Assembly: GCF_011397635.1 (NCBI RefSeq) | Contig: NC_064767.1 | Location: 535,001 to 599,000, forward strand | Source of the DNA: Epinephelus fuscoguttatus | Lineage: Eukaryota; Chordata; Actinopteri; Perciformes; Serranidae | Length of the DNA stretch: 64,000 nt | Direction: 5' to 3' | In this document: in pieces, positions 7,201-58,301 of the stretch | Layout of the letters: every line of letters begins with the position of its first letter | Numbering within the stretch: position 1 is the first letter of the stretch | The notes under the pieces: generated by a model | Databases searched by the model: none | Told to the model about the DNA's origin: nothing | What the model saw: only the letters and a program-made list of their open reading frames with translations | Translations under genes and position numbers: made by a program

Positions 7201-9464
7201 AATAACCACAAAGACACAAACAACCTCAAAGACACAAACAACAACCACAAAGACACAAACAATAACCACAACGACACAAACAATAACCACAAAGACACAA
7301 ACTGACTAAAGTAGGCTTTTAATCTGTTGTCCACAGAGTCTCCACACAGTGGACTTAGCATATGCTATGCTAACAGACTAACAGGTCCCATTTCAAGTCG
7401 TCATCTTCACCAGCTGTATAATGATTGATGTAGCAGGCTAATGAAAGCTAATGCTAACTGTTAGCCTTGGAAGTGAAACATTGCTGCTGCTGCTGCTGGA
7501 AAGAAGCTAGTTAGTCTGACATGCTAACGCATTTTCTGTGTTGACAGGGTGAACGTCTGACGGGTAACGGTGTGAGTGGAGCTCTGTGTATCAGCCAGCC
7601 GTGGCCCGGCATGGCTCGCAGTATCTACGGAGACCACCAGAGATTCATCGAGGCCTACTTCAAACCATATCCTGGTATCATCATCATCATCATCATCATC
7701 GTTATTGTTATTGTTATTATGTCTTTGTGAGTATATTTCATAAAGGTCAGTGTGAGAGCTGATGTACTGATTCATCCTGTCAGGTTATTATTTCACCGGT
7801 GACGGAGCGTACCGCTCTGAGGACGGTTACTACCAGATAACTGGACGCATGGATGATGTCATCAATGTCAGCGGTCACCGTCTTGGTACGGCGGAGATCG
7901 AGGACGCTCTGGTGAGACACCTCATGCACAGGACACATCTTATATGATGGAATAGATATGAAAGTAAACAAATAAATAAACAGGAGCTCCTCATTAACAC
8001 ACAGGCACAGAAACACAACAATAATAAATATAACAGAAATAAATTCTATTTATTTATTTATTTATACTTGAGTCATTCTTTGTCCCCAGTGTGTGAGATA
8101 CGATGATGAGACATGAGACAAAGTGTGTTTGAAGACGAGAATAACAAAGGTGTGAGATGATGTTTACAGACTCTGTGAAGATAATTGTTTGTTTGTTTAC
8201 AGGATGAACATCCAGCTGTTCCAGAGACAGCTGTGATCGGGATCCCACACGATATCAAAGGAGAAGGTGAGACTGAAAACACACCTGAGCTCCCATCATG
8301 CTCTGCTGCTCTGTGTGGTGTTTACATGTAAACATGTCAGATGATGTCAGCTGTTTAGTCGTCACATCAACAGGAAGTGAAAAATACTGCCAGACCTTTT
8401 CTGTCCCTTTCAGAATAAAAGTCCAGAGCTGAGCTGTGAAACAAAACATTCAGATTGAAAAACAACTTTTAATGAAGAAAAGATTCATTTTAAAATTAAT
8501 ATGTTAAAGTAACGATGAGTCAGTTTATTCAGAACGCTTCATGACTATTGAATCTGTATTTTGTTTTTATTTGACCTTATATTTTTATTATTATTTACTC
8601 TTCATGTATCAGTTCTTTATTTATTTGAATTGAAATTTATTGGATTATTAACTGTTATTCATTTTCAGTATGTTTAAATGAATATATAGATTAGTAATTA
8701 TAATCAGAATGTTAATGACTTATTTGTTTATTTGTTTAAATTAATATTATTTCATGTTTTAATTATTGAATTGATTCATAGATTATTTGATTCAATCACA
8801 ACAAAAATTACTGTTTAAATTTTATTTATTCCTTTGAATTTTAATTTCTATTATTTTTTACTGTTGATACTTAATTTTTTATTGATTTTTATCAATTTGA
8901 ATTTAATTTTTCATTATATTTACCAATAATAATTCTCAATTTTTTAAATAATAGATTAATATATACATTAATATATACATTAGTAAATAGGATCAGAATG
9001 AGTTTGGATTTTTTCATTTATTTATTTTAATTAAAATGTTTCTTGTTATTTACTGTTGTTATTTATTAATATTATTTTTCAGTTTTATCTTTTTTTATTC
9101 TTATTTTACATTAATCAAAGAAGAATGACTTAAAAATATAAATAAATAAAAACCTGCAGTGACGTCAAAATGTTGTGTATTGTTTAGTTTTAAATCTCAG
9201 CAGCAGGTTGACATCAGTGTGTTGGATTATTGATTACTGATTATAGATTATTGCAGTAAAAATCAGATGAGGTGAAACATGATGAGTTTAAACTGTGACC
9301 CTCTGCTGCCTCCTGCTGGTTGCTCACTGAACCTGCTCATTAATGATACTGATGAACCAATCACAGAGCAGAATACTGACCATCATCATCACATTATTTA
9401 TTTATTTTCAGGAGAAGATCTTCTACATCATTTTGGCTTTAACCTCTTAGTGTCTGTGAAGTTA

Positions 9465-9500
<36 letters not shown>

Positions 9501-9945
9501 TCAGTGCCGTTCGCCTTCGTGGTGTTGAAGGAGGAGTCTGGTGTCGACTCTGCCGTCGTCCTCCGGCAGCTCCGAGAGCTCGTCTCCACAAAGATCGCCA
9601 AGTACGCCATCCCCGAGCACTTCCTAGTGAGTCTCCTGGTTACCATGGCAACAACATCATCCACACACCAATCAGGAGTCAGTATTTGTGTCTATCATGA
9701 AGCAGCCAATCAGGAGTCAGTATTTGTATCGATCATGAAGCAGCCAATCAGGAGTCAGTATTTGTGTCCCTCAGGTGGTGAAGCGTCTGCCGAAGACTCG
9801 CTCCGGGAAGATCATGAGGCGGATCCTCAGGAAGGTCGCCATGGAGACATCAGCTGATCTCGGCGACGTGTCGACTCTGGATGACCCATCTGTCGTCAAG
9901 GAGATCGTGGAAGCCCACGAGCAGTACAGGAAGCAGAGAGGATGA
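370..9945 (+). CDS. acss1: Acetyl-CoA synthetase, ACSS1-type (3' seven exons, partial)
   Basis: Makes acetyl-CoA from acetate, ATP and CoA; ACSS1 is the mitochondrial-matrix enzyme. Exons with consistent phases: 370-462, 2171-2283, 7548-7674, 7784-7911, 8203-8266, 9505-9626, 9775-9945 (TGA), giving 271 visible codons. The 5' exons are outside the window. Visible motifs of the AMP-forming family: DTWWQTETGG at the first exon junction (adenylate binding), [10 protein letters not shown], the hinge region [20 protein letters not shown], and KTRSGK near the end, whose last lysine is the catalytic, reversibly acetylated residue. The C-terminal tail ([13 protein letters not shown]) and the neighbour APMAP favour ACSS1 over the cytosolic paralogue ACSS2. 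Most intron sequence is tandem repeat. The family call is very secure; the paralogue call rests partly on remembered synteny. Confidence 0.93.
1397..1409 (-). promoter_or_regulatory. CTCF-like motif
   Basis: On the minus strand the core reads CCACCAGGGGGCG, matching the established vertebrate CTCF core at every informative position. It is in an ACSS1 intron. Occupancy cannot be judged from sequence, and such motifs also occur by chance or inside repeats. Confidence 0.4.
1925..2145 (+). mobile_element. LINE-type 3' end with (TTGAA)n tail
   Basis: The segment has the low-complexity TGTATTGAATTGTA region, TGTAAAATGCTTTGGCAACA, then ATGCCAATAAAGC and a (GAATT)n tail ending about 25 bases before the next ACSS1 exon. 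From memory this is the usual 3' terminus of an abundant fish LINE family (L1/Tx1-like). Only the 3' end is present, as expected of 5'-truncated insertion. The class is moderately secure; the 5' limit is approximate. Confidence 0.6.
2341..4062. repeat. 21-bp minisatellite, about 80 copies
   Basis: Tandem units of about 21 bp (typical unit TTTGTGGTCGTTTCATGTC plus TT) with GTCG/GCTG/GTCA and TTCATG/TTTATG variants. The unit length is a multiple of three and few stops arise, so very long open frames appear on both strands (one of 650 codons). They repeat a 7-residue peptide and are artefacts. The array lies wholly inside an ACSS1 intron. Confidence 0.95.
4066..4706. repeat. 8-bp minisatellite CACATGAR/CACAGGAA, about 80 copies
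   Basis: It directly abuts the 21-bp array. Octamers CACATGAA, CACATGAG, CACAGGAA and rarer CACATGAT alternate irregularly. The long minus-strand cysteine-rich frames here are artefacts of the repeat. Confidence 0.93.
4707..5478 (+). other. Unique intronic spacer
   Basis: Non-repetitive spacer between two minisatellite blocks in the same ACSS1 intron, apart from a short (ATTAG)n run at about 5108-5130. I see no exon, RNA gene or recognisable element. Confidence 0.5.
5479..7300. repeat. Second 21-bp minisatellite, inverted relative to the first
   Basis: Units such as CCACAAAGACACAAACAACA plus A, with a frequent shortened variant (ACAACAACCTCAAAGAYG). Roughly 85-95 units. Read against the minus strand of the 2341-4062 array (CCACAAAGAGACATGAAACG plus A), about 15 of 21 positions agree, so the two arrays may be related inverted copies. 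The open frames are repeat artefacts. Confidence 0.93.
8267..9504 (+). other. ACSS1 intron, AT-rich, ending in (GT)n
   Basis: About 700 bases (8450-9150) are very AT-rich with no recognisable element. A (TG)n run at about 9466-9498 ends six bases before the TCAG acceptor, so the usual pyrimidine tract is replaced by GT repeats. No exon is supported inside. Confidence 0.6.
9670..9774 (+). repeat. 38-bp tandem repeat reaching the last ACSS1 acceptor
   Basis: Three units, each beginning AATCAGGAGTCAGTATTTGT. The third runs directly into the CCCTCAG acceptor of the last exon. The two upstream units carry ATCATG where the acceptor should be, so only the last can splice. Confidence 0.8.
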
Positions 9946-11815: not shown

Positions 11816-13150
11816 TTCCTCCAGGTGCTCTGACATGTTTTCTTTTCAGCGTGGTTCAGGTGCTCTGATATGTTTTAGTTTTTAGGTGTCCCACATGTAT
11901 AAATACACAAAATTATCCTCCAGGTGCTCTGACATGTTCTCCCTGAGAATAATTTCTTTCCAGGTGCTCTGACATGTTCTCCCCGTGTCAGCGTGGGTTT
12001 CCTCCAGGTGCTCTGACATGTTCTCCCCGTGTCAGCGTGGGTTTCCTCCAGGTGCTCTGACATGTTCTCCCTGTGTCAGCGTGGGTTTCCTCCAGGTGCT
12101 CTGACATGTTCTCCCTGTGTCAGCATGGGTTTCCTCCAGGTGCTCTGACATGTTCTCCCTGTGTCAGCGTGGGTTTCCTCCAGGTGCTCTGACATGTTCT
12201 CCCTGTGTCAGCGTGGGTTTCCTCCAGGTGCTCTGACATGTTCTCCCTGTGTCAGCGTGGGTTTCCTCCAGGTGCTCCCACATGTTCTTCTCGTGTCAGT
12301 GTGGGTTTCCTCCAGGTGCTCCCACATGTTCTCCTGTGTCAGCGTGGGTTTCCTCAGGTGCTCTGACATGTTCTCCTGTGTCAGCATGGGTTTCCTCCAG
12401 GTGCTCTGACATGTTCTCCCTGTGTCAGCGTGGGTTTCCTCCAGGTGCTCTGACATGTTCTCCCTGTGTCAGCGTGGGTTTCCTCCAGGTGCTCTGACAT
12501 GTTCTCCCTGTGTCACTGTGGGTTTCCTCCAGGTGCTCTGACATGTTCTCCCTGTGTCAGCGTGGGTTTCCTCCAGGTGCTCTGACATGTTCTCCCTGTG
12601 TCAGCGTGGGTTTCCTCCAGGTGCTATGACATGGTCTCCCTGTGTCAGCATGGGTTTCCTCCAGGTGCTCTGACATGTTCTCCCTGTGTCAGCGTGGGTT
12701 TCCTCCAGGTGCTCACATGTTCTCCTGTGTCAGCGTGGGTTTCTCCCAGGTGCTCTGACATGTTCTCCCTGTGTCAGCGTGGGTTTCCTCCAGGTGCTCT
12801 GACATGTTCTCCCGTGTCAGTGTGGTTTCCTCCAGGTGCTCTGACATGTTCTCCTGTGTCAGCGTGGGTTTCCTCCAGGTGCTCTGACATGTTCTCCCTG
12901 TGTCAGCGTGGGTTTCCTCCAGGTGCTCTGCATGTTCTCCCTGTGTCAGCGTGGGTTTCCTCCAGGTGCTCCCACATGTTCTCCCTGTGTCAGCGTGGGT
13001 TTCCTCCAGGTGCTCTGACATGTTCTCCCTGTGTCAGCGTGGGTTTCCTCCAGGTGCTCTGACATGTTCTCCCTGTGTCAGCGTGGGTTTCCTCCAGGTG
13101 CTCTGACATGTTCTCCCTGTGTCAGCGTGGGTTTCCTCCAGGTGCTCCAG
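11816..13150. repeat. 44-bp minisatellite derived from LINE 3' sequence
   Basis: About 30 tandem units built on CATGTTCTCCCTGTGTCAGC then GTGGGTTTCCTCCAGGTGCT and CTGA. The first units are degenerate and interrupted by AT-rich sequence; the centre is nearly homogeneous. The last unit continues without a break into LINE-like 3' sequence at 13128, which shows where the unit came from. Confidence 0.9.
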
Positions 13151-13392: not shown

Positions 13393-13895
13393 TAATAAGA
13401 TATTTTTCCCTTAAAAGATATTTCATCAGTTGGTTTTATTTATTTACTTTTTGTATTAAAGATATATTTTTGTTTGATTCATAACAAGTAAACAAAGATT
13501 AACATATTTTAAATTTAAACTAATTTTATAAAAATAAAAAATAAAAATAAATAAATAAATAAAACAGTAAAATATTATTTGACTAAAGTTGTTTGTTCTC
13601 TCCAAACATTTGTATTTGTTTAATCGTTGTGTTTATATTTGTTCATCAATATATTTATTGTGTTTTATTCATTTCTTTATTTATTTTTTAGTTTATTTTT
13701 AGTTGTTTTTGTTTGTTTTGTATTTGTTGTATTTGTGACCTCCGTCCAGCAGGAGGCGCCCTGCGGAGCTCCCTTCACTGCTGCTGTCGTAAAATCTGCC
13801 GCAAAGCAGTGAGCCGTCAGTGAGAACATCACGAGCTGCTCTGTGAGTGTGTGATGATCAATAATCATCAAAGAGTTGATCATAATCGATCGATA
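13393..13895 (+). promoter_or_regulatory. Upstream region of the zinc-finger gene
   Basis: AT-rich to about 13735, then GC-richer around GGCGCCCTGCGGAGCTCC up to the start codon at 13896. A CTCF-like motif lies at 13746-13760. No TATA box in a convincing position was seen. The promoter is inferred only from position and base composition. Confidence 0.3.
13746..13760 (+). promoter_or_regulatory. CTCF-like motif
   Basis: CCAGCAGGAGGCGCC departs from the CTCF core consensus at one informative position. It lies 136 bases before the first codon of the zinc-finger gene, so it could be a promoter-proximal CTCF site. Confidence 0.35.
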
Positions 13896-14002
13896 ATGTG
13901 GTCGAGTGTGGAGCAGCTGGTGCTGGAGGAGTTCATGGTGACGGCGGTGACTGAAATCTGTCAGAGACTCAAAGAGACACGCGAAGAAGAAAAGACTGAG
14001 GT

Positions 14003-14041
<39 letters not shown>

Positions 14042-15792
14042 GAGGGGTATTCCAGAAAGCAGGTTATGTGAAAACTCAGAGTAAGTTAACCCTGAGATGA
14101 GGGAAACTCTGAGTCAGTCACCATGGTAACAGACTCTGTGAACATAACCTGCTCGCTGACAGGTTTTCTTCAATAAACCCTGAGTTTCTCTCTGTCTCCT
14201 CCCTCTTACACGCTGTTTCATTTCCTCATTCATTCAGTCCGTGTCAAAGCTTGTATCGAAGCGCATTCATTAGCGGAGATTTACCGTCTGTCACAGTCTA
14301 AATCCTGCTGGATATTAGTTTGTTACTCAGGACTGTCTGAAGTTACTGAATTTATGCACATCAGTCATTTCTTTGGACATCAGCTTTTGTCTTTACATTC
14401 AAATATTACACAGCGAGAATTCACCCTCAGCTCAGAATCAAACCTCTGTCCTTTTTATATTTATTATTTTTATAACACTGTGCACAAGGATCAGACTGTC
14501 AGTCTGTCAGAGCAGCTCCACATGTTTATTGCACATAATGTGTAGGTCTAATTATTTAAATGTTAAAATGGGTATGAAGCTTTAGACACGTAGTATCAGT
14601 GACTAATGATCTCTATCACTGATGTCACTGGTCGCACTGATGGAACATAACTCCTATAGCCTAATATTGGGGATTATATGTTCATATTTCTGAGTGAGCA
14701 ATGGTGCAGCATTTCACTGTCTTTACATTTACTACATTTGTAGCTGAAATAAAGTCACTGAATGCTGTTGAGTCAAGATACAAATAGATGTGCAACATTT
14801 TCAAATCTACTGTATTTTAACCTCAACGTCTTTTCAGGTGCAAATCACCAAACATATTATTACTGGGTCAGACTGTGAGTTTACAGTCATGTCTTTATGT
14901 CTTTGATCTATAGCCTAGCCTATATGTTTGAAATCTTCTGCCTCCTGTGTTTTCCCCATCAGATTAAACCTGAACAAATATATTATGATATATTATTAAT
15001 ATAATGTAATGTATCTACAGCCTGATACACAGTCAGATTCCACCACTTTATCTTCATTAAGGAAATGTAAGTCTGATAAATGATGAATAAACTTTTTTAT
15101 TAACTTTATGGTTAACTTATTGACACTTTCCTCGCTCTGACTCAGGCTCTTCTTTTAAAGATAAACGTGCACCGTCTGCTACACATGCATTAATATCTCT
15201 ACATCCACTGGATTAAAATGGAGGCGCTGTCTTTTATTTACCTGTTGCCATGGTGAATCGTGGAGTCGTAGCTCCATTGATGATGGCTTTTTATTGTCGG
15301 CTTAACTCAGAGTGAACATACTCAGAGTTGACTGAACTAACTCAGATCAGCTGTTCTGGAACCGGTAACTCAGAGTTTCCCATCTCAGGGTAAATCAGCT
15401 CAGAGTTCAGGGTTAGACTCAGAGTTTGTTGAACCTCCTGCCTGGAATACCCCTCAGATCATTCGTTTAATGATAAAGTGTTAGAACTGACCCGCTGCAG
15501 CTGCACTCTGATCGATTAATCGCTCATTATAAATTATTTATTAACTTCAGTCATTATTATTATTATTTATTTATTTTTCTCCCTTTTTAAATGAATAAAT
15601 TAAATATTTTGTTGATCCTGAAGGGAAGCTGTGATTGGTTACAGTCGCTGTGATGTAAACAAGAAAGAATAATAATAAATAAATACATGTCGTCACATGT
15701 TTGTCCACAATAAAGTCATCTTGATTGATTAGTGTGACGTCACTGGTCCGGACGTGTTTCTATAGCCGCCGCCGCTGAGCGCCGCGTGGCTT

Positions 15793-15840
<48 letters not shown>

Positions 15841-17680
15841 GTAGGAGGAGCTGCTGGCGGTGATGAAGAGGCTCTGTGAGGCGCTCCTGCAGGAGCTGAG
15901 GAGGCTGCTGGAGGAGCAGCAGGAGCTCAGACAACGTGAGGACTGATCGTCAGCATCATGTGATCATGTCATCATGTGATCACGTGTTTACCTCTGTCAT
16001 CTCTCTGTCTCTGCAGACGCCGCCATCGAGCCTCAGCGGGACTCCGCCCCCCCTGCAGCTGAAGGAGACCCTCAGGTGGAGGTCAGCCACCAGTCAGACG
16101 CTCCCGAAGCTGAGAGCAGCCAATCAGAGCAGACGACTACGGCGGGCAGCAGGCGGAGCTTCAGCTGCAGCGTCTGCAGCAGCAGCTTCTCCAGACGGAC
16201 CAACCTGAGCGCTCACCTGCGTGTCCACAGCCGCGAGCGTCCTTTCACCTGCTCCACCTGCGGGAAGACTTTCTCCGCCCGCAGCAGCGTCAGAGTCCAC
16301 CAGCTCACCGTGCACGGCGAGCAGCGGCCCCACAGGTGTCCTCACTGCGGCAAGGTGTTCGGCACCCGCAGCCACCTCAGGACGCACCTGACGTCCAGCT
16401 GGGGACGCCACGGACAGACGCTCACCTGTTCGTCCTGCGGCGAGACGCTGGTGGCGAGGTGCCGCCTCCGAGAGCACAGGCTCACCTGTCAGAAGACAGA
16501 CGACAGGTTCAGGTGTGCAGAGTGCGGGAAGGAGTTCTCCAAACACAGTTACCTGTCTGCGCACCGCAGAGTCCACCTGAAGGACAAACCCTTCAAATGT
16601 CCCACCTGTCAGAAAGGTTTCACCACACGCCGCAGCGTCCACGTCCACCAGCTGACCGTCCACAGAGGACTGAAGCCGTTCACCTGCAGCGTCTGCAGGA
16701 AGACCTTCAGCCAGCGCAGCGGCCTCACGGCTCACCTGAGGACGCACACGGGTGAGCGGCCGCACGCTTGCGAGCAGTGCGGGAACTCTTTCTCCAGCAG
16801 GAGCAGCCTGTCGGTGCACCGCCGCGTCCACACCGGAGAGAAGGCGTTCAGCTGCGACACCTGCGGGAAGAGCTTCAACGTGTCTGCCAACCTGCGGCGC
16901 CACCAGCTCGTCCACTCAGGCCGCCGGGCGTTCACCTGCACCGTGTGTGGCCGCAGCTTCACGCAGGCCGGACACCTGAAGGTGCACCGCACCGTGCACA
17001 GCAGCGAATGGGCGTTCATCTGCAACGCCTGCGGGAAGGGCTTCAGACAGCGCAGCGCCCTGCTGGTGCACGAGCGCGGCCACGCCGGCATCAAACCGCA
17101 CAGCTGCAGCGAGTGCGGAAAACGCTTTTCCTCGTCCACGTCGCTAAGACGCCACCAGCTGGCTCACAGCGGGCAGAGAGCTCACACCTGTGACGAGTGC
17201 GGGAAGAGCTTCACCAGCGCCCACATCCTGAAGACTCACTTGCAGCTGCACGGCGCCAGCAAAGCGTTCTCCTGCGACGTGTGCGGCCGCGGCTACAGCT
17301 CACTGAGCTACCTGAAGACGCACCGCCGCAGCCACTCGGAGGGGAAACTGTTCAGCTGCGCTCAGTGTCAGAAAAGCTTCTCCACGCAGGCCAGCATGAA
17401 GCTGCACGAGCGCACGCACAGTGGAGAGAAACCGTACGTCTGCGAGGTCTGCGGGAAGAGCTTCAGCGTGTCGCAGAACCTCGTCAGACACAAGCGCGTC
17501 CACAGTGGAGAGAAGCCATTTGAGTGCGGCGTCTGCGGAAAGAGATTCAGTCAGAACAACAACCTGAAGTCTCACCAACTGGTTCACACGGGACAGAAAC
17601 CTTTCAGCTGCTCCGCCTGCGCCCGCGGCTTCACCTCCATGAGGAGCCTCCGAGAGCACAAGTGTGTCGCTGCTGAGTGA
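13896..17680 (+). CDS. C2H2 zinc-finger protein with 18 fingers
   Basis: Probable sequence-specific nuclear DNA-binding regulator. Exons: 13896-14000, 15845-15935, 16017-17680 (619 codons plus stop, phases consistent). Exons 1-2 encode a leucine/glutamate-rich, coiled-coil-like N-terminus starting MWSSVEQLVLEE, as in many fish polyzinc-finger proteins, with no KRAB or BTB domain seen. Exon 3 has an acidic linker, then 18 tandem fingers of 28-30 residues from FSCSVC to the end, with TGEKP-type linkers (HTGERP, HTGEKA, HSGEKP). Finger 3 has extra residues between its histidines, finger 4 ends in cysteine in place of the last histidine, and finger 18 is cut short by the stop (HKC). The intron 1 donor is GAG/GTCTCA and its acceptor has no pyrimidine tract. 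The start was chosen because it gives the leader and the correct phase. I cannot name an orthologue. Confidence 0.85.
14005..14039 (+). repeat. (CA)n at zinc-finger intron 1 donor
   Basis: About 17 CA units beginning four bases into the intron whose donor GT is 14001-14002. The partner (TG)n lies at the other end of the same intron. Confidence 0.95.
14042..15454. mobile_element. TIR element (non-autonomous DNA transposon) in intron 1
   Basis: Inverted ends AGGGGTATTCCAGAAAGCAGG on the left and CCTCCTGCCTGGAATACCCCT on the right. Sub-terminal repeats rich in ACTCAGAGTT/AACTCTGAG occur at both ends, and the interior has no transposase frame. Size 1.4 kb. The superfamily is not certain (Harbinger-like by general appearance). 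Confidence 0.7.
15795..15839 (+). repeat. (TG)n at zinc-finger intron 1 acceptor
   Basis: About 22 TG units ending four bases before the GTAG acceptor (15841-15844), so they occupy the normal pyrimidine-tract position. Complementary to the (CA)n tract at the donor. Confidence 0.95.
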
Positions 17681-40160: not shown

Positions 40161-43100
40161 ATGACGATAACATGTTTATTGACTCGTCTGTGTGTGACCC
40201 GTCCAGCATGACATGAATATAACACGTTTATTGACTCGTCTGTGTGTGACCCGTCCAGCATGACGTGAATATAACACGTTTATTGACTCGTCTGTGTGTG
40301 ACCCGTCCAGCATGACATCAATATAACATGTTTATTAACTCGTCTGTGTGTGACCCGTCCAGCATGACGTGAATATAACATGTTTACTGACTCGTCTGTG
40401 TGTGACCCGTCCAGCATGACATCAATATAACATGTTTATTGACTTGTCTGTGTGTGACCCATCTAACATGACATCAATATAACATGTTTATTGACTTGTC
40501 TGTGTGTGACCCGTCCAGCATGACATCAATATAACATGTTTATTGACTCGTCTGTGTGTGACCCGTCCAGCATGACATCAATATAATACGTTTATTGACT
40601 CGTCTGTGTGTGACCCGTCCAGCATGACATCAATATAACATGTTTATTGACCTGTCTGTGTGTGACCCGTCCAGCATGACATCAATATAATACGTTTATT
40701 GACTTGTCTGTGTGTGACCCGTCCAGCATGACATCAATATAACACGTTTATTGACTCGTCTGTGTGTGACCCGTCCAGCATGACGTGAATATAACACGTT
40801 TATTGACTCGTCTGTGTGTGACCCGTCCTGCATGACGTGAATATAACACGTTCATTGACTCGTCTGTGTGTGACCCGTCCTGCATGACGTGAATATAACA
40901 CGTTTATTGACTCGTCTGTGTGTGACCCGTCCAGCATGACATCAATATAACACGTTTATTGACTTGTCTGTGTGTGACCCGTCCAGCATGACATCAATAT
41001 AACATGTTTATTGACTTGTCTGTGTGTGACCCGTCCAGCATGACATCAATATAACATGTTCATTGACTCGTCTGTGTGTGACCCGTCCAGCATGACGTGA
41101 ATATAACACGTTTATTGACTCGTCTGTGTGTGACCCGTCCAGCATGACGTGAATATAACACGTTTATTGACTCGTCTGTGTGTGACCCGTCCAGCATGAC
41201 ATCAATATAACATGTTTACTGACTCGTCTGTGTGTGACCCGTCCAGCATGACGTGAATATAACATGTTTATTGACCTGTCTGTGTGTGACCCGTCCAGCA
41301 TGACGTGAATATAACACGTTTATTGATTTGTCTGTGTGTGACCCGTCCAGCATGACATCAATATAACATGTTTATTGACTTGTCTGTGTGTGACCCGTCC
41401 AGCATGACATCAATATAACATGTTTATTGACCTGTCTGTGTGTGACCCGTCCAGCATGACGTGAATATAACACGTTTATTAACTCGTCTGTGTGTGACCC
41501 ATCTAACATGACATCAATATAACATGTTTATTGACTCGTCTGTGTGTGACCCGTCCAGCATGACATCAATATAACATGTTTATTGACTTGTCTGTGTGTG
41601 ACCCGTCCAGCATGACATCAATATAATACGTTTATTGACTTGTCTGTGTGTGACCCGTCCAGCATGACATCAATATAACATGTTTATTGACTTGTCTGTG
41701 TGTGACCCGTCCAGCATGACATCAATATAACATGTTTATTGACTTGTCTGTGTGTGACCCATCTAACATGACATCAATATAACATGTTTATTGACTTGTC
41801 TGTGTGTGACCCGTCCAGCATGACATCAATATAACATGTTTATTGACTCGTCTGTGTGTGACCCGTCCAGCATGACATCAATATAACATGTTTATTGACT
41901 TGTCTGTGTGTGACCCGTCCAGCATGACATCAATATAACATGTTTATTGACTTGTCTGTGTGTGACCCGTCCAGCATGACATCAATATAACATGTTTATT
42001 GACTTGTCTGTGTGTGACCCGTCCAGCATGACATCAATATAATACGTTTATTGACTTGTCTGTGTGTGACCCGTCCAGCATGACATCAATATAATACGTT
42101 TATTGACTTGTCTGTGTGTGACCCGTCCAGCATGACATCAATATAACATGTTTATTGACTTGTCTGTGTGTGACCCGTCCAGCATGACATCAATATAACA
42201 CGTTTATTGACTTGTCTGTGTGTGACCCGTCCAGCATGACATCAATATAACATGTTTATTGACTCGTCTGTGTGTGACCCGTCCAGCATGACATCAATAT
42301 AACATGTTTATTGACTTGTCTGTGTGTGACCCGTCAGCATGACATCAATATAACACGCTTATTGACTTGTCTGTCCAGCATGACGTGAATATAACACGTT
42401 TATTGACTCGTCTGTGTGTGACCCGTCCAGCATGACATGAATATAACATGTTTATTGACCTGTCTGTGTGTGACCCGTCCAGCATGACATCAATATAACA
42501 TGTTTATTGACTCGTCTGTGTGTGACCCGTCCAGCATGACATCAATATAACATGTTTATTGACTCGTCTGTGTGTGACCCGTCCAGCATGACATCAATAT
42601 AATACGTTTATTGACTTGTCTGTGTGTGACCCGTCCAGCATGACATCAATATAATACGTTTATTGACTTGTCTGTGTGTGACCCGTCCAGCATGACATCA
42701 ATATAACATGTTTATTGACTTGTCTGTGTGTGACCCGTCCAGCATGACATCAATATAACATGTTTATTGACTCGTCTGTGTGTGACCCGTCCAGCATGAC
42801 ATCAATATAATACGTTTATTGACTTGTCTGTGTGTGACCCGTCCAGCATGACATCAATATAATACGTTTATTGACTCGTCTGTGTGTGACCCGTCCAGCA
42901 TGACATCAATATAACATGTTTACTGACTCGTCTATGTGTGACCCGTCCAGCATGACGTGAATATAACATGTTTATTGACCTGTCTGTGTGTGACCCGTCC
43001 AGCATGACGTGAATATAACACGTTTATTGACTCGTCTGTGTGTGACCCGTCCAGCATGACATCAATATAACATGTTTATTGACTTGTCTGTGTGTGACCC

Positions 43101-44375
43101 GTCCAGCATGACATCAATATAACATGTTTATTGACTTGTCTGTGTGTGACCCGTCCAGCATGACGTGAATATAACACGTTTATTGACTTGTCTGTGTGTG
43201 ACCCGTCCAGCATGACATCAATATAACATGTTTATTGACTCGTCTGTGTGTGACCCGTCCAGCATGACATCAATATAACATGTTTATTGACTCGTCTGTG
43301 TGTGACCCGTCCAGCATGACATCAATATAACATGTTTATTGACTCGTCTGTGTGTGACCCGTCCAGCATGACATCAATATAACATGTTTATTGACTGGTC
43401 TGTGTGTGACCCGTCCAGCATGACATCAATATAACAGGTTTATTGACTTGTCTGTGTGTGACCCGTCCAGCATGACATCAATATAACATGTTTATTGACT
43501 CGTCTGTGTGTGACCCGTCCAGCATGACATCAATATAACATGTTTATTGACTTGTCTGTGTGTGACCCGTCCAGCATGACATCAATATAACACGTTTATT
43601 GACTTGTCTGTGTGTGACCCGTCCAGCATGACATGAATATAACATGTTTATTAACTCGTCTGTGTGTGACCCGTCCAGCATGACGTGAATATAACATGTT
43701 TATTGACCTGTCTGTGTGTGACCCGTCCAGCATGACGTGAATATAACACGTTTATTGATTTGTCTGTGTGTGACCCGTCCAGCATGACATGAATATAACA
43801 TGTTTATTGACCCATCTGTGTGTGACCCGTCCAGCATGACGTGAATATAACACGTTTATTAACTCGTCTGTGTGTGACCCATCTAACATGACGTGAATAT
43901 AACATGTTTATTGACCTGTCTGTGTGTGACCCGTCCAGCATGACGTGAATATAACACGTTTATTGATTTGTCTGTGTGTGACCCGTCCAGCATGACGTGA
44001 ATATAACATGTTTATTGACCCATCTGTGTGTGACCCGTCCAGCATGACGTGAATATAACACGTTTATTGATTTGTCTGTGTGTGACCCGTCCAGCATGAC
44101 GTGAATATAACATGTTTATTGACCCATCTGTGTGTGACCCGTCCAGCATGACATGAATATAACATGTTTATTGACCCATCTGTGTGTGACCCGTCCAGCA
44201 TGACGTGAATATAACACGTTTATTAACTCGTCTGTGTGTGACCCATCTAACATGACATGAATATAACATGTTTATTGACCCATCTGTGTGTGACCCGTCC
44301 AGCATGACGTGAATATAACACGTTTATTTGTCTGTGTGTGCATGTTTATTGACCCATCTGTGTGTACCCATCTGT
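40161..44375. repeat. 52-bp satellite-like array, about 81 copies
   Basis: Unit: TTGACTCGTCTGTGTGTGAC, CCGTCCAGCATGAC, then a variable part and TGTTTA. Two linked variants dominate, ATCAATATAACATG and GTGAATATAACACG, plus rarer ATCTAACATG and AATACG forms. The GTGA type is commoner near both ends and the ATCA type fills the middle. Every frame has stops. A few truncated units occur near 42330-42380 and at the right edge. Confidence 0.96.
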
Positions 44376-45212: not shown

Positions 45213-47045
45213 ATGGCGTCCACGCATGAAGCACAGAGCCTTAGGCGTCCAAATCCATGCACTGCATCTCCTCCAGCTGCCAGACGCAGCAGACTAACAG
45301 GTAACATGTTTCTGTACCAACACGTGCCGTCTGAGCTGAAGCATGTTCACCATACATCTGAAAATAATCCCAGCAAAACATCAGCTCAGGATTTAAAGCA
45401 TCTGAGGCTGCTGTCAGCCCCAGAGTCGTCTCCTTTGGTCTGAATCAGGGACTCATGTTGTTCCAAAGTTGTATAATTGCCAAGCTGTGTGTTGCGACCT
45501 GGATGTGAAGCAACTGCAGTCACATGACACATTGTTTGGGTTAAACATGAGCATGTTACAGTCCTGGAGGATTATTAATGTGCACCTCCTCCTGTACTGC
45601 CTTAATATGCACATTCAGCACATCCAATGCATCAAAACATTGTTTTCTAGTTGGAGCCGCGTTTGCCTCGTTTTCAAACTGTATGCTTTGACTAAAATGA
45701 ACAATGACAGCAATATAGTCCACGATGAGCAGCGCTAAAATCAACCTGCGTAGTTGTCCCTCCATTGTGACATTAGAAAGTGTCACATTTATCTTGCAAG
45801 TGTACTCTTCTTCAACGTTTGCTTTACTTCCTGGATTTTTCCCACATGGAAATTCTGACCAATCAAGAGCAGCTTTCTCACACAAGGCATTTGATCTGGT
45901 CCTCTTGTAAATGCTGCCGTGAGAACACCAACCAACTCTAGGCAATTATACAACTTTGGAACAACATGAGTCCCTGATTCAGACCAGAGGAGACCACTCT
46001 AGGGCTGACAGCAGCCTTAGCTTCACTCAAACAGCGGACGAACACCAGCGTTGGGACTGACGGGTTAATGTCAGACCGAGGTTCACAGGAGCCACACCTA
46101 AATACACAGCAGACATGTCAGACTACAGTAACCACAGCAGCACAGCCATGAATCGAACCTCTCTTCAGCCAACATGTAACCATGACATCTGTGTCTGTTC
46201 TTCGTCCTGTGTCTCTCTGTCCGACAGATTCCGATGAGCTCAGGCTCGTCCTGATTGGCAAGACAGGAGCAGGGAAAAGTTCAGCAGGAAACACCATCTT
46301 GAGCAGACAAGCTTTTGAGTCCGACCTATCTGCAACGTCTGTGACAACCGATTGTATGAAAGAAAGAGGAGAGGTCGGAGGGAAAAAGGTTGCTGTCGTC
46401 GACACCCCAGGACTGTTTGACACCGAATTAACCAATGAGGAAGTGTTGCCAAGGATCAAGGTGTGCATCGGCATGTCCTCTCCTGGTCCTCATGCCTTCC
46501 TGGTGGTCGTTCAGCTGGGCAGGTTCACAGAAGAGGAGAAAGAAACAGTCCGAATGATTCAAGAGCATTTCGGTGAAGATGCCGCCAAATACACGATGGT
46601 GTTGTTCACTTGTGGGGACAAGCTGAAGAAACAAACCATCGAAGAGTTTGTCTCAAAGAGCAAAGACCTCCAAGACATCATCCAGAAATGTTACGGCCGT
46701 TATCACGTCTTCAACAATGAGGTGGAAAACCCATCTCAAGTCACTGAGCTTCTGGAGAAGATCGACAAGATGGTAAGCGACAACAACGGGTCGCACTACA
46801 CCACAGATATGTACCTGAAGGCAGAGAGAGCCATCGAGGAGAGGAAACAACAACTCCTCAAAGAGTCTGAGGAGAAGAGGAAGAGGGAGGTCGAGGAGCT
46901 GAAGGCCAAATACGAAGGAGAGAAGTTGGAGCTAGAATTAAAAATGATGAAAGAAAAATACGAGGCTGAAGCCAGAGCTCGAGCTGAAAGAGAGAATAAT
47001 GTTCACCATACATACACGCTGAAGGTTGAGTGTGTGATCAGCTGA
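45213..47045 (+). CDS. GIMAP/AIG1-family GTPase with CaaX-like C-terminus
   Basis: Immune-associated nucleotide-binding GTPase; such proteins oligomerise on membranes and influence lymphocyte survival. Exons 45213-45300 and 46228-47045, 301 codons plus TGA; the phase-1 junction joins RLT to DSDELRLVLIGKTG. Motifs: G1 P-loop GKTGAGKSS (about residues 40-48), G3 DTPG (88-91), the AIG1 conserved box around LGRFTEEEKETV (about 126-137), G4 TCGDKL (about 157). After residue 210 comes a long charged, probably coiled-coil tail. The last four residues, CVIS, form a CaaX prenylation-type signal; no transmembrane segment is seen. Intron 1 holds a 618-bp inverted-repeat element. A decayed relative lies at 56318. 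Family very secure; which GIMAP member is not decidable. Start chosen because exon 1 gives the correct phase; it is less certain than exon 2. Confidence 0.88.
45403..46020. mobile_element. 618-bp TIR element in GIMAP intron
   Basis: Imperfect inverted arms of about 80 bases: 45403-45481 (TGAGGCTGCTGTCAGCCCC to TTGTATAATTGCC) and 45941-46020 (GGCAATTATACAACTTTGGA to AGGGCTGACAGCAGCCTTA). The interior is one minus-strand frame of 129 codons with no recognised domain, possibly residual transposase or chance. No clear target duplication was found. A non-autonomous DNA transposon. Confidence 0.75.
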
Positions 47046-55714: not shown

Positions 55715-56317
55715 TGGAAAGGTGTGTCAGCAAAGACAGCCCAACACAGTCCAAATCCACACCTGGTGCTTTGACGCTAAGGAGCCTCAGCGACATCTGC
55801 CGGGGATGTTAGTGAGGCTTCCCTTTAGTCTTCAGACTCTTCTTCCTCCACAGAGGACATCACGGCTGGACTTAGGGGTTCCTCAAAGTGCTCTTTCCCC
55901 CGCTCAACAATATTCCCCGTTCAGGTTAGCATTCCTCCTCAGCCTGAGACAAGTCCTGCTTTCTCCTCCTGAGGCATCTAATAGTTTGCCAGAACTTCCT
56001 TCAGGTCGACAAAAAGTCCTTCTCCATAGCTTCTCCTTCTCGCCATTCTATACCCATCTGTTGCTTCAGCAGACCCCTGGAACAACCAGCTCACAATGCA
56101 GCCGGCCCCAGTGCTCATCCCTGGTGTGCCGACAGGGTGGCTGCTCTATTAGGTTCTGTCAGCCTGTGGCCTCCACCGTGATACAGTGCGATTCTTGGAG
56201 TTTCTGGATTTCTTCTTATTATATGTGTGTTTTTTCTACCTGTCAGTGTGGACATTCTGAACAACTACTAAACACAATATGTCGTACAGTAAAGTCCTGT
56301 GTCTCTCTGTCCAACAG

Positions 56318-56600
56318 GTTCTGGTGAGCTGAGGCTCGTCCTAATTGGGAAGACAGGGGCACGGAAGAGTTCAGCAGGAAACACCATCTTAAGCAGAGGA
56401 GCTTTTGAGTCTGATCTATCTGCAACGTCTGTGACATCGAAATGCAACAAAGCAAGAGGAGAGGTCGGAGGGAAAAAGGTTGTTGTCATCGACACTCCAG
56501 GGCTGTTTGACACCAGTTTAGCCAATGACCATGTGTGGAAGAGATCAAGATGTGCATCAATCTGTCATCTCCAGGTGATAGTTCAGCTCCAGCTTTATAA
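56318..56600 (+). pseudogene. Decayed GIMAP copy
   Basis: Homologous to exon 2 of the gene at 45213, including the upstream acceptor (GTGTCTCTCTGTCCAACAG). It keeps ELRLVLIGKTG, SSAGNTILSRGAFESDLSAT and DTPGLFDTSLAN. The P-loop reads GKTGARKSS (glycine to arginine). There is a one-base deletion near 56536, then a roughly 18-20-base deletion, after which homology fades by about 56600. A Tc1-like element inserted at 56679, just downstream. No first exon was found. Not functional. Confidence 0.8.
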
Positions 56601-56678
56601 AGATGCACCAACTGATCTGCTGGTGACCAGACTCGGCCGGTCAGTCTCACATATGACTTCCTGTGCCGATCACATTTA

Positions 56679-58301
56679 CAGTACAGGCCAAAAGTTTGGA
56701 CACACCTTCTCATTCAATGCGTTTTCTTTATTTTCATGACTATTTACATTGTAGATTCTCACTGAAGGCATCAAAACTATGAATGAACACATGTGGAGTT
56801 ATGTACTTAACAAAAAAAGGTGAAATAACTGAAAACATGTTTTATATTCTAGTTTCTTCAAAATAGCCACCCTTTGCTCTGATTACTGCTTTGCACACTC
56901 TTGGCATTCTCTCCATGAGCTTCAAGAGGTAGTCACCTGAAATGGTTTCCACTTCACAGGTGTGCCTTATCAGGGTTAATTAGTGGAATTTCTTGCTTTA
57001 TCAATGGGGTTGGGACCATCAGTTGTGTTGTGCAGAAGTCAGGTTAATACACAGCCGACAGCCCTATTGGACAACTGTTAAAATTCATATTATGGCAAGA
57101 ACCAATCAGCTAACTAAAGAAAAACCAGTGGCCATCATTACTTTAAGAAATGAAGGTCAGTCAGTCCGGAAAATTGCAAAAACTTTAAATGTGTCCCCAA
57201 GTGGAGTCGCAAAAACCATCAAGCGCTACAACGAAACTGGCACACATGAGGACCGACCCAGGAAAGGAAGACCAAGAGTCACCTCTGCTTCTGAGGATAA
57301 GTTCATCCGAGTCACCAGCCTCAGAAATCGCAAATTAACAGCAGCTCAGATCAGAGACCAGATGAATGCCACACAGAGTTCTAGCAGCAGACCCATCTCT
57401 AGAACAACTGTTAAGAGGAGACTGCGCGAATCAGGCCTTCATGGTCAAATAGCTGCTAGGAAACCACTGCTAAGGAGAGGCAACAAGCAGAAGAGATTTG
57501 TTTGGGCCAAGAAACACAAGGAATGGACATTAGACCAGTGGAAATCTGTGCTTTGGTCTGATGAGTCCAAATTTGAGATCTTTGGTTCCAACCGTGTCTT
57601 TGTGAGGCAGAAAAGGTGAGCGGATGGATTCCACATGCCTGGTTCCACTGTGAAGCATGGAGGAGGAGGTGTGATGGTGTGGGGGTGTTTTGCTGGTGAC
57701 ACTGTTGGGGATTTATTCAAAATTGAAGGCACACTGAACCAGCATGGCTACCACAGCATCCTGCAGCGACATGCCATCCCATCCGGTTTGCGTTTAGCTG
57801 GACGATCATTTATTTTTCAACAGGACAATGACCCCAAACACACCTCCAGGCTGTGTAAGGGCTATTTGACCAAGAAGGAGAGTGATGGAGTGCTGCGGCA
57901 GATGACCTGGCCTCCACAGTCACCGGACCTGAACCCAATGGAGATGGTTTGGGGTGAGCTGGACCGCAGAGTGAAGGCAAAGGGGCCAACAAGTGCTAAA
58001 CACCTCTGGGAACTCCTTCAAGACTGTTGGAAAACCATTTCAGGTGACTACCTCTTGAAGCTCATGGAGAGAATGCCAAGAGTGTGCAAAGCAGTAATCA
58101 GAGCAAAGGGTGGCTATTTTGAAGAAACTAGAATATAAAACATGTTTTCAGTTATTTCACCTTTTTTTGTTAAGTACATAACTCCACATGTGTTCATTCA
58201 TAGTTTTGATGCCTTCAGTGAGAATCTACAATGTAAATAGTCATGAAAATAAAGAAAACGCATTGAATGAGAAGGTGTGTCCAAACTTTTGGCCTGTACT
58301 G
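56679..58301 (+). mobile_element. Tc1-like transposon with about 272-bp TIRs
   Basis: Ends CAGTACAGGCCAAAAGTTTG and its reverse complement, flanked by TA on both sides (56677-56678 and 58302-58303), the Tc1/mariner target duplication. Near-identical inverted arms of about 272 bases (56679-56950, 58029-58301). The right arm contains the 3' end of the transposase reading frame. Confidence 0.93.
57092..58138 (+). pseudogene. Tc1-type transposase, single frame disturbed in the middle
   Basis: DDE transposase for cut-and-paste movement. Residues from MARTNQLTKEKPVAIITLRN include the paired helix-turn-helix (SVRKIAKTLNVSPSGVAKTI) and a GRPR-like hook (RKGRPRV). Catalytic acids are present in WSDESKF, QQDNDPKHTS and SPDLNPMEMVW. 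The frame stops at TGA (57617-57619). The same frame resumes and continues to TAA at 58136-58138 from about 57640. Between, about a dozen codons are out of frame, consistent with two small deletions summing to a multiple of three. It probably makes no full protein as read. Confidence 0.85.

Follow-up and report, generated by a model that had tools for sequence, protein, structure and literature searches.

The first intron of a C2H2 zinc-finger gene in Epinephelus fuscoguttatus starts with a CA array and ends with a TG array, and the two arrays were predicted to pair across the intron. We regard this intron, from its sequence and its modeled folding, as a candidate (AC)m-(GT)n bridged intron, with about even chances that this is what it is. 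The layout and the predicted pairing fit the definition of a class already reported in zebrafish, and intron 1 was therefore graded as a probable further member of that class, not a demonstrated one. The window, i.e. the whole stretch of DNA analyzed, was 64,000 nt long (NC_064767.1, positions 535,001-599,000, forward strand), and all positions given here are those of the window.

The gene lies on the plus strand, and joining of its exons by translation produced a protein of 619 aa with 16 zf-C2H2 stretches (Table 1). Both borders of the predicted intron 1 were in phase 0 (exon 1 to exon 2). The codon directly 5' of exon 2, in the frame of exon 2, was TAG. This indicated that exon 2 is either entered by splicing or contains the start of translation. 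The ATG that starts exon 1 has an A at -3, and the codon score of the first 42 nt of this exon was highest in frame 0 (10.6 vs 1.2 and 0.1). The remainder (13938-14000) gave 4.8, 8.1 and -4.9 in the three frames, which resolved no frame. A search of viral_contigs with the N-terminal 85 aa gave 121 pattern matches and no confirmed relative, and a search of solved structures gave six matches with E values of 10 or less (lowest 0.35), none of them convincing. Exon 1 may resemble the helices at the N-terminus of other zinc-finger proteins of fish, a likeness to which we attach no evidential weight. A literature search for a fish zinc-finger motif and for the terminal inverted repeat string of the element in intron 1 gave no useful match.

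Table 1. Features of the zinc-finger gene and of the neighboring acss2-like intron. Donor scores were computed with a donor matrix.
Feature	Position	Strand	Basis
acss2-like intron, (TG)16.5 then CCTCAG; donor AAG/GTGAGA, score 10.71	8267..9504		donor matrix (score)
Coding part of exon 1 (35 aa, from ATG to GAG, ending in phase 0)	13896..14000	+	translation, exon joining
Rival frame-keeping donors ATG/GTGACG (13938, score 5.06) and GCG/GTGACT (13947, score 5.18)	13938..13952	+	donor matrix
Predicted intron 1, 1,844 nt, GT-AG, phase 0	14001..15844	+	frame on either side
Candidate donor GTCTCA, none of the usual bases at +3 to +6, score -0.97	14001..14006	+	
(CA)17.5 array, 35 nt, 100% matches; 5' arm of predicted bridging helix	14005..14039	+	
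Transposon-like element, 1,418 bp, starting at the base after the CA array	14040..15457	+	
Decoy donor AGA/GTAAGT in the left end of the element, score 6.79, frame-breaking	14081..14086	+	donor matrix
Upstream AGs to be skipped, CTATAG ending at 15765 and CTGAG ending at 15779	15764..15779	+	
A-free stretch, 64 nt, containing the TG array	15779..15842	+	
(TG)22.5 array, 45 nt, 100% matches; 3' arm of predicted bridging helix	15795..15839	+	
Exon 2, 91 nt	15845..15935	+	exon joining
Intron 2, 81 nt; donor AAC/GTGAGG; pyrimidine-rich acceptor ending CTGCAG	15936..16016	+	
Exon 3, C2H2 zinc-finger array to stop	16017..17680	+	exon joining

Intron 1 starts with GTCT(CA)17.5 and finishes with (TG)22.5TGTAG. 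Counted from the donor GT (14001-14002), the CA array began at intron base 5; at the other end, the three bases TGT separated the TG array from the acceptor AG (15843-15844). From -24 to -5, the acceptor was 55% pyrimidine, all of it U and nearly all alternating with G, and thus had no pyrimidine tract. The original prediction had placed about 17 CA units four bases past the donor and about 22 TG units just before an acceptor lacking a pyrimidine tract, and both descriptions were borne out by the exact counts.

Ten exact CA or TG runs of at least 20 nt were present in the 64-kb window (3 CA and 7 TG). At this density, the joint occurrence of a CA run no more than about 6 nt from a given donor and a TG run equally close to its acceptor is expected about 2e-7 times per intron, and the estimate ranged from 1e-7 to 5e-7 for run cut-offs of 24 to 16 nt. 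These estimates assume independent and even placement of the runs; they are also post hoc, the GT nearest to the array having been picked as the donor. A scan of both strands for GT-N0-6-(CA)6+ and (TG)6+-N0-6-AG at distances of 80-10,000 nt recovered only the pair of intron 1 in the window.

Other repeats were seen next to splice-site-like sequences. At 920-1253, a (CA)13 run was followed by (TG)15 278 nt later. On the minus strand of this pair the CA run starts right after AGGT, resembling half of the bridged layout; no AG followed the TG run within 6 nt. At 7675-7783, a short intron of the acss2-like gene has a donor, CTG/GTATCA, that runs straight into (ATC)n, so that a microsatellite adjoins a donor there too.

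Folding of the intron RNA, which had been proposed as a check, predicted 34.9 of the 35 bases of the CA array to be paired with the TG array. The result was the same whether the intron was folded alone or with its flanking exons (13780-16020), and in this prediction the whole CA array is thus taken up by the pairing. The helix was about 35 bp long, with a duplex energy of -69.6 kcal/mol. The number of pairs expected between the two ends was 35.5 in intron 1, compared with 4.6-12.4 in the other five of the six introns defined in the window (the compared ends were 60 nt long in three of the six; in the three short introns they measured 26, 36 and 49 nt).

The folding energy of the whole intron, -0.301 kcal/mol per nt, was about 22% below the mean of 24 GC-matched plus-strand segments of the window, which are not introns (-0.247, sd 0.043), and one of the 24 was as low. 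In a passage of PMC9024468, introns of the class are described as having folding energies 50-100% below those of ordinary introns of equal length. The element alone gave -0.286 kcal/mol per nt and accounted for a large share of the low energy of intron 1, which makes this a weak test.

The effect of the arrays on the accessibility of the splice sites was estimated by replacing each array in silico with one random draw and predicting openness by folding. Openness of the donor at -3 to +4 was 0.45 in the native sequence, 0.37 without the CA array and 0.27 without the TG array, and at -3 to +6 it was 0.35, 0.32 and 0.41, respectively. The acceptor gave 0.36, 0.28 and 0.44, and the decoy donor at 14081 stayed at 0.35 in all three. 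The randomized CA tract still formed 15.4 of 35 pairs and was therefore an imperfect control. The shifts were small and went in both directions, and a role of the arrays in exposing the splice sites or hiding the decoy donor was not clearly supported. The predicted folding supports the intron ends being drawn together, and not clearly their exposure.

The bulk of the intron is occupied by a sequence resembling a transposable element. Its imperfect terminal inverted repeats (14040-14065 and 15432-15457, 26 nt) are 88% complementary, with a further 27 nt at 78%, and it carries five ACTCAGAGT motifs. Its longest listed open reading frame (14177-14545) had no Pfam match at E up to 0.01. No second copy was found in the 64-kb window, and no convincing target-site duplication was found at its ends. 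Twelve viral contigs shared a 17-base pattern of its terminal repeats; they were rejected as relatives, since blastn with the element gave no match of more than 24 bases in them and the shared pattern was taken as chance.

The minimum-energy structure pairs 14039 with 15796 and 14040 with 15457; on the 5' strand, the stem of the element thus follows the CA array without an intervening base. When the element was removed in silico, the resulting 426-nt intron kept the same CA-TG helix. A transposon-like element looped out by the pairing had also been foreseen; the element was confirmed by its inverted repeats, and the looping out is what the folding predicts.

Repeated sequence was found elsewhere in the window as well. 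A 44-bp minisatellite (11916-13147; 28 copies, 94%) appeared by eye to have expanded within an interspersed repeat, its unit being part of the sequence immediately following the array. A very long tandem array of a 52-bp unit lies at 40167-44328 (80 copies, 92%). Open reading frames of AIG1-family GTPases were seen at 46152-47045 and 56293-56739, and just after the second of these were Tc1/mariner-like transposase pieces (HTH_Tnp_Tc3_2 at 56984-57619 and DDE_3 at 57620-58138). Judged by eye, the genes (the C2H2 array, the acss2-like gene and the AIG1-type GTPases) and the repeats have a teleost appearance.

With the donor matrix, GAG/GTCTCA at 14001 ranked 2396th among the 5099 GTs of the plus strand, i.e. 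like a random GT, and the donors of the other five introns scored 2.1 to 10.7. Five GTs in exon 1 or at its border keep the frame with exon 2 (13908, 13920, 13938, 13947 and 14001). Those at 13938 and 13947 lie 63 and 54 bases upstream of 14001. From 13948 up to the in-frame stop at 14082-14084, 14001 is the only GT that keeps the frame. The decoy GTAAGT at 14081 was the top-scoring GT between 13780 and 14139. From the low score at 14001 and the better ones at 13938, 13947 and 14081, a conventional predictor would be expected to pass over 14001.

Use of 13938 or 13947 would remove 18-21 residues of a charged stretch that runs into exon 2. This stretch looked helix-like by eye, and the residues on the two sides of the exon border are MWSSVEQLVLEEFMVTAVTEICQRLKETREEEKTE and EELLAVMKRLCEALLQELRRLLEEQ. 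The position of the array and the retention of this stretch are in favor of 14001 as the candidate donor. With a donor at 13938 or 13947 the CA tract would lie 58-67 nt inside the intron, and bridging would still be possible.

At the acceptor side, two AGs precede the predicted acceptor within 80 nt. Of the A residues that could serve as branch point, the closest to the acceptor is 15778 (in CTGAG), at 66 nt from the intron end; TTGAT motifs come no closer than 116-120 nt, at 15728 and 15724. Because 15779-15842 contains no A, the branch point must sit beyond the helix, if the acceptor is right. With the rise of A-form RNA, a helix of 35 bp is nearly 100 angstroms long. A branch point past its distal end, with both splice sites at the proximal end, would mean that the helix must open, slip or be bypassed first. 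A passage of PMC9024468 describes a zebrafish example whose hairpin masks the branch point, and by analogy this tension between branch point and helix would not be foreign to the class.

We interpreted these features by the following mechanism. The (CA)17.5 and (TG)22.5 arrays would pair as a helix of about 35 bp, placing the splice sites side by side. The helix would substitute for the absent pyrimidine tract, and the distant and very weak donor would thus be matched with the acceptor. The inverted ends of the element would stack a second stem, by which 1.4 kb of foreign sequence and the stronger decoy donor would be looped away. The branch point would most likely lie between the element and the TG tract (15458-15794, 337 nt), at the distal end of the helix, which would have to open or slip ahead of the first splicing step. 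We infer from the sequence splicing at 14001/15844, a requirement for the pairing and the dispensability of U2AF2. A bolder extension, which we put forward tentatively and consider rather unlikely, is that the helix replaces both the pyrimidine tract and the donor consensus. A GT mismatched to U1 would then beat a GTAAGT 80 nt downstream by being presented beside the acceptor, and the pairing would make the intron robust to transposon insertion, the second stem keeping the effective intron at about 430 nt.

Intron 1 could instead be an ordinary intron with a U/UG-rich acceptor, in which (UG)22 is bound by U2AF2 or by another U/UG-binding factor such as PUF60, the donor is 13947 or 13938, and the CA array is a neutral microsatellite. 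We consider this doubtful, though a serious possibility. The two upstream donors keep the frame and far outscore 14001, but they would cost the protein 18-21 residues of the charged, helix-like stretch (judged by eye) that continues past exon 1, and a length-matched CA array 4 nt from a frame-perfect GT would become a coincidence. The AG-free zone of intron 1, 63 nt, may point the same way, as a passage of PMC6093180 links PUF60 to branch sites far from the acceptor and to longer AG-free zones, and by analogy this factor could be a rival helper here; intron 2, however, has a zone of 61 nt and an A at -17. Further evidence came from the gene next upstream, an acetyl-CoA synthetase (acss2-like by look), of which the last exons, joined over three of the four introns read, matched solved acetyl-CoA synthetases at E 6e-46. 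One of its introns (8267-9504), the exon join of which is backed by this alignment, has a TG-tract acceptor like that of intron 1, but its donor matches the consensus and it lacks a CA array. The TG tract there was predicted to pair chiefly with bases a short way upstream and to form 7.0 expected pairs with the first 60 nt, a short ACACAC at intron bases 13-18 being all that is offered near the donor. A TG acceptor alone is thus no mark of a bridged intron in this genome. On the other hand, this neighbor has the CCTCAG acceptor and an A at -39, and intron 1 has neither. The two-sided arrangement is what distinguishes intron 1 of the zinc-finger gene.

An improbable alternative is that transcription starts downstream, driven by a small promoter around 15640-15794; the TG tract would then belong to the 5' UTR, translation would begin at the ATG at 15863, and the main product would have no intron 1 to splice. 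The CpG observed/expected ratio is 1.43 at 15640-15794 and 1.33 at 15730-15794, compared with 0.81 at 13730-14004 and 0.36 in the element, and the ATG is in frame with a G at -3. A CRE palindrome, TGACGTCA, is present at 15735, but the same string occurred six times in the window and was discounted as weak evidence. The open reading and coding-like start of exon 1, the context of its own ATG and its in-phase join to exon 2 all argue against such a start. It is more improbable still that the arrays act as protein sites, with hnRNP L on the donor CA tract and UG binders such as TDP-43 or CELF at the acceptor modulating an exon that is weak and subject to alternative use. A passage of PMC9456152 names CA repeats at 3' splice sites as targets of hnRNP L/LL, and one of PMC10165737 describes TG repeats at the acceptor of a human CFTR exon as altering its splicing. 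Such binding is putative here, and it does not predict complementary tracts at the opposite ends of one intron.

The original prediction that intron 1 is of the repeat-bridged type was supported in part, by the layout, the predicted helix and the fit to the passages of PMC9024468 and PMC9198270; the weak donor, the neighboring intron with TG only and the small effects on openness speak against a simple reading of this kind. If spliced as drawn, intron 1 would be a natural case in which a random-like donor and an acceptor with no pyrimidine tract are combined, with RNA pairing as the main mark of the intron. It is well suited to minigene work, having two tracts, a built-in decoy donor at 14081 and a TG-only control intron in the neighboring gene. 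It also raises the question of how the helix opens before the first splicing step, as the branch point would have to lie beyond it.

Two other systems offer partial likenesses. In the FiNZ zinc-finger genes of cyprinid fish, a 28-aa N-terminal FiNZ domain is contained in one exon, according to a passage of PMC10547256. The present exon 1 is likewise short and rich in Glu (9 of 35), whereas there a single finger exon comes after the FiNZ exon. The CFTR exon acceptor shares with intron 1 a long TG tract directly before the acceptor; in contrast, a poly-T tract is also present there, and the passage concerned in PMC10165737 mentions no complementary CA tract at the donor.

The closest parallel is with the (AC)m-(GT)n introns of teleosts, reported in zebrafish (Lin et al. 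2016, as described in passages of PMC9024468, PMC9198270 and PMC9508853). These introns have AC near the donor and GT near the acceptor, they form a hairpin across the intron with the end bases unpaired and near each other, and the definition of the class includes splicing without need for U2AF2. Compared with the class as described in these passages, intron 1 may differ in holding a 1.4-kb transposon-like element with ends that stack a second stem, in having a candidate donor without the +3 to +6 consensus, and in a predicted branch point no closer than 66 nt to the end of the intron. It agrees with the zebrafish introns in the AC repeat near its candidate donor, the matching GT repeat near its acceptor and the predicted hairpin across the intron that joins its two ends.
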